Part shown: positions 22,809 through 23,425 of the stretch, piece after piece
Layout of the letters: each line of letters begins with the position of its first letter
Numbering within the stretch: the stretch's first letter is position 1
Assembly: GCA_021464245.1 (NCBI GenBank)
Contig: JADCRB010000028.1
Coordinates: 5,361,844-5,425,843, forward strand
Reading direction: 5' to 3'
Source: Carallia brachiata
Taxonomy: Eukaryota > Streptophyta > Magnoliopsida > Malpighiales > Rhizophoraceae
Length of the DNA stretch: 64,000 nt
The notes under the pieces: model-generated
The model's database searches: none
What the model was told of the DNA's origin: nothing
Seen by the model: only the letters and a program-made list of their open reading frames with translations
Program-made: the position numbers and the translations under genes

Positions 22809-23425
22809 CTAGCGGGGCCCGAGGTGCAACTCCAAGTCAAGCTCGACCTCGTCTGGTGGGCCGATGATGTTGATGTCAACGTCGACGTCGCTTTCCGGCT
22901 GGTTGATGCTGCCGGAATATTCTCGAAAGAGAGACAAAGTTTCGCCGGAATGACTCCTTTCTGCTAGAAAAATTCCTCATAGACTTAGTACCTAGGAGGG
23001 ATGAACCCTTGGCTGACTCCGTAAACCACCAGGACCAGCGTGCATTCCCATGGCTACGGCTTTGATGAACATACCGTGGAAGGACTATTGTGGTGGAAGA
23101 AACTCGGACCTGCTTCATTTGACGGCGAAGTTGTACTGGTGGGATCTACCATCGGAACAGCAGACTGTTCTTTGGAAAAATCAGCTCTCAGTGCTGGTTT
23201 CTTCCTGCTTCTCGATTCTGGAACCAATAAAACACATTTTTTCCTTCGATTGCCCCGAGTGGGCGCAATCGTGAGACAAGTTGGTAAATGAGATGCATTA
23301 GGCATAATACCTCCATTGTTGTGGAAGACTTCCTCTAGAATTTGCAGTTGCGCCATGGTTGGTTGCCACCTTGTGCGGGGTGACCTTTCTTCTCCCTTGT
23401 CTTGAGGTTCTGCAACTGGTTCCAT
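22809..23425 (-). CDS. Captured WUSCHEL-related homeobox (WOX)-like gene inside element 1
   Basis: From ATG at 23425 the frame gives a short acidic leader and then homeodomain helix 1, RTRWQPTMAQLQILEEVF. A frame step at about 23290-23300 leads to RLRPLGAIEGKNVFYWFQN, helices 2-3 of a homeodomain. The IEGKNVFYWFQN signature is diagnostic of the plant WOX family. After further frame steps the reading ends with an acidic stretch and EVELDLELHLGPR then stop at 22809; LDLELHLG is an EAR-type (LxLxL) repression motif like those ending WUS-clade proteins. It is on the gag-pol strand, between integrase and 3' LTR, with no visible intron. It is a host-type transcriptional regulator carried as cargo. 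As assembled it needs about two to three frame corrections, so it is a broken copy or contains sequence errors. Confidence 0.75.
22818..22841 (-). other. EAR repression motif (LDLELHLG) of the captured gene
   Basis: Codons CTT GAC TTG GAG TTG CAC CTC GGG give LDLELHLG, three residues before the stop codon. C-terminal LxLxL motifs recruit TOPLESS-type corepressors in plants. The preceding run of Asp residues (SDVDVDIN) and EVE give an acidic context. Confidence 0.7.
23200..23377 (-). other. WOX homeodomain region
   Basis: Covers helix 1 (TRWQPTMAQLQILEEVF) to helix 3 (NVFYWFQNREAG). The residues W-P-T near the start and the F-Y-W-F-Q-N string near the end follow the WOX pattern. One base-level frame step separates the two halves. 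REAG replaces the usual basic H/RKAR after QN, an unusual loss of positive charge in the recognition helix. Confidence 0.75.

Follow-up and report, generated by a model that had tools for sequence, protein, structure and literature searches.

Can a plant long terminal repeat (LTR) retrotransposon hold a developmental regulator of its host as one of its own genes? The question is raised by a 64,000-nucleotide stretch of the Carallia brachiata genome (contig JADCRB010000028.1, positions 5,361,844 to 5,425,843; henceforth referred to as 'the window', meaning the whole stretch that was analysed). Here a gene resembling that of the stem-cell regulator WUSCHEL (WUS) lies inside an element (copy 1) that we assign to the Tat lineage of Ty3/gypsy retrotransposons, between integrase and the 3' LTR and on the gag-pol strand, as a preliminary description of this DNA had placed it. 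The best explanation overall, which we consider very probable, is that the window contains a dead copy of a WUSCHEL-type homeobox gene, one of the genes of a Tat-lineage Ty3/gypsy family in this plant.

Identity of the gene

The preliminary description had reported two homeodomain peptides joined by a single frame step. Both peptides were recovered, each in its own frame of the minus strand, and the end points given for the gene proved to be its start codon and its stop. The frame step is indeed present in the homeodomain, but it is not the only lesion: the minus-strand translation of 22600-23700 shows additional shifts of frame, with stops ahead of the WUS box, so that the window copy is not open and is to be regarded as dead. 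We take 22809-23425 to be the gene in this copy because it is the counterpart of open frames of 203-207 codons in other copies. The linker of the window copy, which is broken, contains splice-like sites; an intron there was rejected, since open copies read through without one.

When 43 WUSCHEL-related homeobox (WOX) proteins were compared with the window by tblastn, 40 out of 40 among the matches listed fell at 23164-23457, with a best E-value of 6.6e-12. The first half of the window copy (open reading frame (ORF) 23057-23425) matched the solved WUSCHEL structure 6ry3 with an E-value of 0.0029 and the second half (23191-23334) with 2.7e-8, the corresponding values for the STENOFOLIA structure 6wig being 1.2 and 9.7e-8. 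The two halves scored 16.7 and 17.6 bits with the Pfam Homeodomain profile, both under the cut-off of 22.9 bits, and the open copy L012 scored 47.0 bits. The profile search proposed in the preliminary description thus recovered WUSCHEL, most strongly with an open copy (6ry3, E 2.9e-18), and the identification as a WOX gene stands. With the broken gene of the window as query, a protein search returned 43 WOX proteins at no more than 54% identity; with the 123-amino-acid ORF of the window as query, no WOX protein was matched, and no relatives of the gene were found in the viral contigs searched.

Overlooked previously was a C-terminal piece of the window copy containing TLSLF and LDLELHL. This pair was reached in 1 of 20,000 shuffles, with a pattern that had been written after sight of the sequence. 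In open copies the WUS box (TLxLFP) reads TLPLFP in one version of the gene (version A) and ILPLFP in the other (version B), and LDLELHL forms an EAR-like motif, for which the Pfam EAR profile gave only 10.0 bits (E 0.7). The two motifs together are described as a mark of WUS in Rosaceae (PMC5471313, for that family). The homeodomain is of WUS length and has the extra loop residue seen in WUS, in a column that was filled in all 10 WUS rows, all three Ipomoea rows and one other row of the 43. Its identity to the three host homeodomains that the comparison covers was 54% (WUS), 45% (WOX5) and 47% (WOX13). A comparison of conserved with variable homeodomain columns (21/25 against 9/36) was not retained as evidence, since the rows compared had been retrieved through words shared with the query. 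The Ipomoea WUS-like proteins (P0022, P0023 and P0024) are themselves short and on a long branch, and two of them, of 159-161 amino acids, contain TLSLFP or TLPLFP and terminate in an EAR-like motif. Directly behind the gene in the window, at 22735-22788, lies a tandem repeat (2.5 copies of a 22-nt unit), which falls in the stretch with most indels between copies.

Distribution and selection across the element family

The 337.5-Mb assembly (164 contigs) was searched with the Homeodomain profile, and 150 of 1,347 candidates were scored. A span of about 183 nt, scoring 48-55 bits, recurs in about 100 of these 150 rows; the 26 of them that were inspected comprised 24 element copies (L009-L032) and two host WUS genes (L033 and L034). 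Twenty of the element copies (L009-L028) form a homeodomain-picked set, which is biased to intact homeodomains. In all 20 the gene is followed by the untranslated region (UTR) and LTR of the family, and integrase directly precedes it in all 19 stretches that are long enough; for L009, whose stretch starts inside the gene, an integrase is listed just upstream. The frame was complete, ATG through GPR stop, in 17/20, L027 being open with a different start and L028 broken. In L024 (gene near 4770-5393, minus strand) the ORF is of full length, with the WUS-box stretch in a shifted frame and the motif lost.

A sample that does not depend on the homeodomain was drawn with the window integrase, which has at least 142 matches in the genome (a lower bound, 139 of 2,996 candidates having been scored). 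Every seventh row from row 2 was taken (n = 20, 90-100% amino-acid identity) and 1.8 kb downstream was read; the list behind this blind sample favours copies with an intact integrase close to that of the window. The gene was found in 20/20, at the same place and on the same strand, aligned in full or up to 4 bases short. One open frame of 203-207 codons was present in seven (L064, L065, L071, L072, L074, L078 and L081), which represent four distinct sequences, four of the seven sharing the same DNA. The gene is therefore a standing part of the element family and not a chance passenger of one element. The preliminary description, which had presented it as the cargo of an element, was correct in that the gene lies inside, but the gene proved to be family-wide. 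The absence from other copies that would have refuted that description was not encountered, although one copy, the second in the window (copy 2), is without it, and open frames and an omega (dN/dS) below 1, for which a check in other copies had been suggested, were both found.

The two versions, A (FYWFQNRRSRKK) and B (VYFWFQNRRHRETV), are 88% identical in DNA and 83% in protein; the window copy belongs to version A. Several insertions of the family are young: LTR pairs were sought for 15 homeodomain-picked copies and matched in 13, and the 12 pairs with more than 200 aligned sites gave Kimura two-parameter (K2P) distances of 0.0023-0.0511, or about 0.1 to 2 million years at a substitution rate of 1.3e-8 per site and year. 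Some integrase frames extend to 1,064 amino acids, which also suggests that the family was active not long ago.

Between the blind-sample copies L071 and L064, which stand for A and B at a synonymous distance of 0.23, omega was 0.43 (bootstrap range 0.26-0.71; a fraction of 0.0005 of bootstraps at 1 or above) and in the homeodomain 0.29 (0.13-0.60). Similar values were obtained for L071 with L065 (0.43) and with L074 (0.41), L012 giving the same values as L071, and for 11 distinct open frames that were chiefly homeodomain-picked and mainly of version A (0.45; 0.27-0.77). Indels were distributed unevenly: L012 and L064 differ by a single indel (6 nt) in the 618-nt gene, compared to six in the 248 aligned nt behind it, and the median pair among 16 homeodomain-picked loci (three of 19 were left out as not oriented) had no indel in the gene, compared to 5.4 per kb in reverse transcriptase, 2.4 in integrase and 7.2 in the UTR. 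Overall, these patterns indicate that the protein was preserved as A and B diverged, under purifying selection that is strongest in the homeodomain, and we hold that the gene is very probably a selected gene of the element.

Several observations weigh against this reading. The gene is broken in 13/20 copies of the blind sample, in the window copy and in L028; death of many single copies is expected after insertion. Outside the homeodomain omega was 0.55 (0.30-1.19) for L071 and L064, which is not clearly below 1, and a first, smaller count of sites, restricted to version A, did not reach significance (22 non-synonymous, 15 synonymous; P 0.13). A and B represent one split, so that the omega test amounts to one contrast. 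The excess of indels just behind the gene is partly due to homopolymers, and in the blind sample indels are only modestly depleted, at 3.73 per kb within the gene against 6.09 per kb across the next 300 nt of UTR, where substitutions reach the same level (P 0.058 when scaled to substitutions, P 0.018 for frame-breaking indels per base). Moreover, A and B are less alike in the gene (89.2%) than in its flanks (94.0 and 96.8%), from which it would follow that recombination between the lineages mixed parts. The homeodomain tree (61-63 columns) contained no supported group and did not place the gene in the WUS clade; its end branch was 3.2-3.9 long, the nearest rows by path were WOX1/6-like, again unsupported, and the best identity was 56% (P0011), so that we call the gene WUS-type by structure and not by tree. 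Motifs attributed to WUS were not in consistent excess in five LTR or 3'-end pieces, the single values above chance being TTAATSS in the window LTR (3 against 0.49) and TGAA in L014 (20 against 14.4) and L018 (21 against 15.8). Finally, copy 2 lacks the gene: 960 bp corresponding to 22584-23543 of copy 1 are missing, and TAC (3 bp) is common to both sides of the junction. Since all 20 blind-sample copies elsewhere carry the gene at this place, the gap is most simply read as a deletion at 3 bp of microhomology, and its ends would be those of the deletion in copy 2 and not the limits of the capture. A nested DNA transposon was considered as the carrier of the gene and rejected, as the ends of the 960 bp show no clear inverted repeats by eye and have TAC alone on both sides.

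Alternative explanations and a proposed role

The host has two WUS genes, L033 (C65:260575-261375) and L034 (C90:2365824-2366624), each of which gave three blocks in tblastn with two known WUS proteins, with two introns between the homeodomain and the WUS box. Both introns are absent from the gene in the elements, which suggests uptake from a spliced messenger. An ancestor element would thus have taken up the gene from a spliced host WUS-type messenger, for instance via template switching during reverse transcription.

If the gene had no use, such a messenger would have been copied into one master element and carried along as a neutral passenger, dying copy by copy. The 13 broken copies in the blind sample, the loss of the gene from copy 2, which is built from the same family, and the common capture of gene pieces in plant LTR elements (according to PMC7264820 and PMC13317346, for the elements they treat) are all in line with this; an omega of 0.43 between two element lineages at a synonymous distance of 0.23, a frame kept while the flanks gained indels, and retention in 20/20 copies make it improbable. 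Selection of the host's own making would be an explanation if A and B had been captured independently, each from a different host WOX gene, after the divergence of these two genes, and the greater divergence of the gene (89.2%) than of its flanks does look as if a block had been swapped in. Against this, A and B share place, flanks and a 5' leader with the TATA box, are both intron-free, and agree in 83% of residues compared to 39-54% with the host WUS, WOX5 or WOX13 homeodomains, and we regard two captures as very improbable. The exact gap in copy 2 with TAC at both sides, and the distance of the window copy from other WOX proteins, would also fit a stray 960-bp piece of a host pseudogene that entered copy 1 after it had landed. 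This has practically no probability left and is refuted by the gene's presence at the same place in all 20 blind-sample and all 20 homeodomain-picked stretches.

Under the reading of a selected gene of the element, a TATA box about 95 nt before the start codon, found in all 11 other copies inspected as well as in the window, suggests that the gene may have its own transcript. A comparable arrangement is reported for maize Grande, whose extra ORF is antisense and encodes a nuclear protein transcribed from its own promoter (work cited in PMC7264820), and for the DNA-binding extra ORFs of Retand elements a regulatory role has been proposed (PMC11963269, as a proposal). Together with a DNA-binding domain behind its own TATA box, these cases would favour a protein that attaches to LTR or UTR sequences of its own element and adjusts their transcription, like retroviral accessory regulators. 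We consider this rather unlikely: the motif counts given above leave self-regulation via the LTR without support, with the proviso that a diverged homeodomain may prefer other sites.

In WUS, the homeodomain binds DNA, and the WUS box and EAR motif call the co-repressor TOPLESS. By analogy, the element's protein, made from its own transcript or from element RNA, would be a nuclear protein that binds DNA via its homeodomain and recruits TOPLESS via the WUS box and EAR motif. It could act as a mimic or rival of WUS in stem cells or germ-line precursor cells, and keep or make cells fit for expression of the element, so that new insertions would reach seeds. We favour such a host-directed role because the donor regulates stem cells from which germ cells come, and put it forward tentatively, as a possibility somewhat short of an even chance. 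The same caution applies to the wider proposal that an LTR retrotransposon family has made a stem-cell regulator its accessory gene, a WUS-like protein serving in meristem or germ-line precursors so that copies are inherited, which we find plausible and yet doubtful. If true, it would be a plant counterpart of a retrovirus carrying a cellular growth regulator, and would show that elements can domesticate a stem-cell regulator.

The carrier element and comparison with known systems

The features of the window are collected in Table 1. Copy 1 was assigned to the Tat lineage because a second RNase H (aRH) sits between the first RNase H and integrase, the position described for Tat elements of flowering plants (PMC6317226, for the elements it surveys); the Tat type and the element limits given in the preliminary description are thereby borne out. 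No chromodomain was matched in the integrase ORF of the window copy at E-values up to 1, and no match to the Retand mark Transposase_28 (PF04195) was found in its five antisense ORFs. Its region between pol and the 3' LTR (21905-23868) is about 2.0 kb long and lies outside the range of 2.9-6.6 kb given for Retand elements (PMC11963269, for that group). The LTR pair of copy 1 is identical at 635 of 648 aligned sites with 5 gaps (K2P 0.0204), and its pol frame is interrupted at several places.

Table 1. Positions of the features in the window, counted from its first letter.
Feature	Position	Strand	Remarks
LTR retrotransposon assigned to the Tat lineage, copy 1	21238-31163	minus	3' LTR 21238-21904, 5' LTR 30516-31163
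Target duplication GTAAG of copy 1	21233-21237 and 31164-31168		flanks both ends
Decayed WUSCHEL-type homeobox gene	22809-23425	minus	start codon 23425, stop 22809; several frame changes and stops
Homeodomain split over two frames	23194-23386 (23285-23386 and 23194-23289)	minus	tblastn with WUS and WOX proteins, E to 6.6e-12
C-terminal piece with WUS-box-like TLSLF and EAR-like LDLELHL, then stop	22812-22976	minus	third-frame translation
TATA box TATAAAA, 95 nt 5' of start codon	23514-23520	minus	sequence reading, putative promoter motif
Integrase, end of pol	23869-24705	minus	Pfam rve, 38.8 bits (cut-off 32.6)
Second RNase H (aRH), between RNase H and integrase	24951-25604	minus	Pfam RVT_3, 89.6 bits
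Reverse transcriptase and first RNase H	25559-26668	minus	Pfam RVT_1 and RT_RNaseH
gag	28384-29721	minus	Pfam Retrotrans_gag, 56.1 bits
Second copy of the same family, rearranged, without the homeobox gene	47741-59340	minus	junction 49241-49243

Copy 2 is rearranged in other respects: its pol stretch 52196-54472 is repeated at 54466-56751 with 93.7% identity. Its LTRs are only 84% alike over 548 aligned nt, as after recombination between two elements. The two copies form a mosaic, in which most of pol is 97-100% identical and the LTR and 3' region are 45-93% identical per 150-250-base window; in other copies, too, pol is more alike than UTR and LTR. Outside the elements, a VPS62-like host ORF lies at 17012-17620 on the minus strand; PF06101 is precomputed in its relatives, and the best match reached 84%, covering 90% of the query.

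Extra ORFs occur widely in Tat elements, most of them with no function assigned. Here one is recognisable as a WUS-type transcription factor, and what such ORFs do would become open to direct experiment on the genes bound and the cells changed. Counts of WOX genes and annotations of homeobox genes in such genomes may include element genes. Size floors in surveys would hide a gene of this kind: the survey by Neumann et al. (2019, PMC6317226), as its procedure is described, set its lower limit for extra ORFs at 250 codons, and an ORF of about 207 codons would be missed. No homeobox ORF in an LTR retrotransposon was found in the literature searched, which included PMC11728184 besides the accounts cited here on such elements, with supplements, subscription journals and preprints outside the search.

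The nearest known systems are the Ogre and Retand elements, Tat elements with the same gag-pol order and the same aRH position, in which the extra ORF likewise follows pol and precedes the 3' LTR (PMC6317226; Vicient 2025, PMC11963269). Where they are described there, the extra ORFs encode Transposase_28 (antisense, in Retand) or a plant mobile domain (in Ogre), whereas the gene described here is a sense homeobox gene of about 207 codons. In orchid Ty3/gypsy elements, an AlkB-like RNA demethylase ORF is a further host-type domain that became a fixed extra ORF and persisted over successive cycles of copying; that protein, on the published account (PMC9289625), is an enzyme acting on RNA with activity in vitro, and ours would be a DNA-binding developmental regulator, for which selection is shown. 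Maize Bs1 and other LTR elements with transduced gene pieces similarly contain a host gene, usually in sense orientation and probably acquired by template switching (PMC7264820, PMC13317346). Such transduced genes are described in those accounts in one or few copies, in contrast to a gene present in 20/20 blind-sample copies and under purifying selection. WUSCHEL and the other WOX proteins of its clade share with the element's protein a homeodomain of WUS length with IEGKNVFYWFQN, the WUS-box motif and the C-terminal EAR-like motif; the element's gene differs in being short, intron-free, multicopy and element-borne, with about half of its homeodomain residues unlike those of host WUS. An extra ORF in a Tat element is thus of a known kind, and a selected WUS-type regulator as that ORF is, to present knowledge, new.
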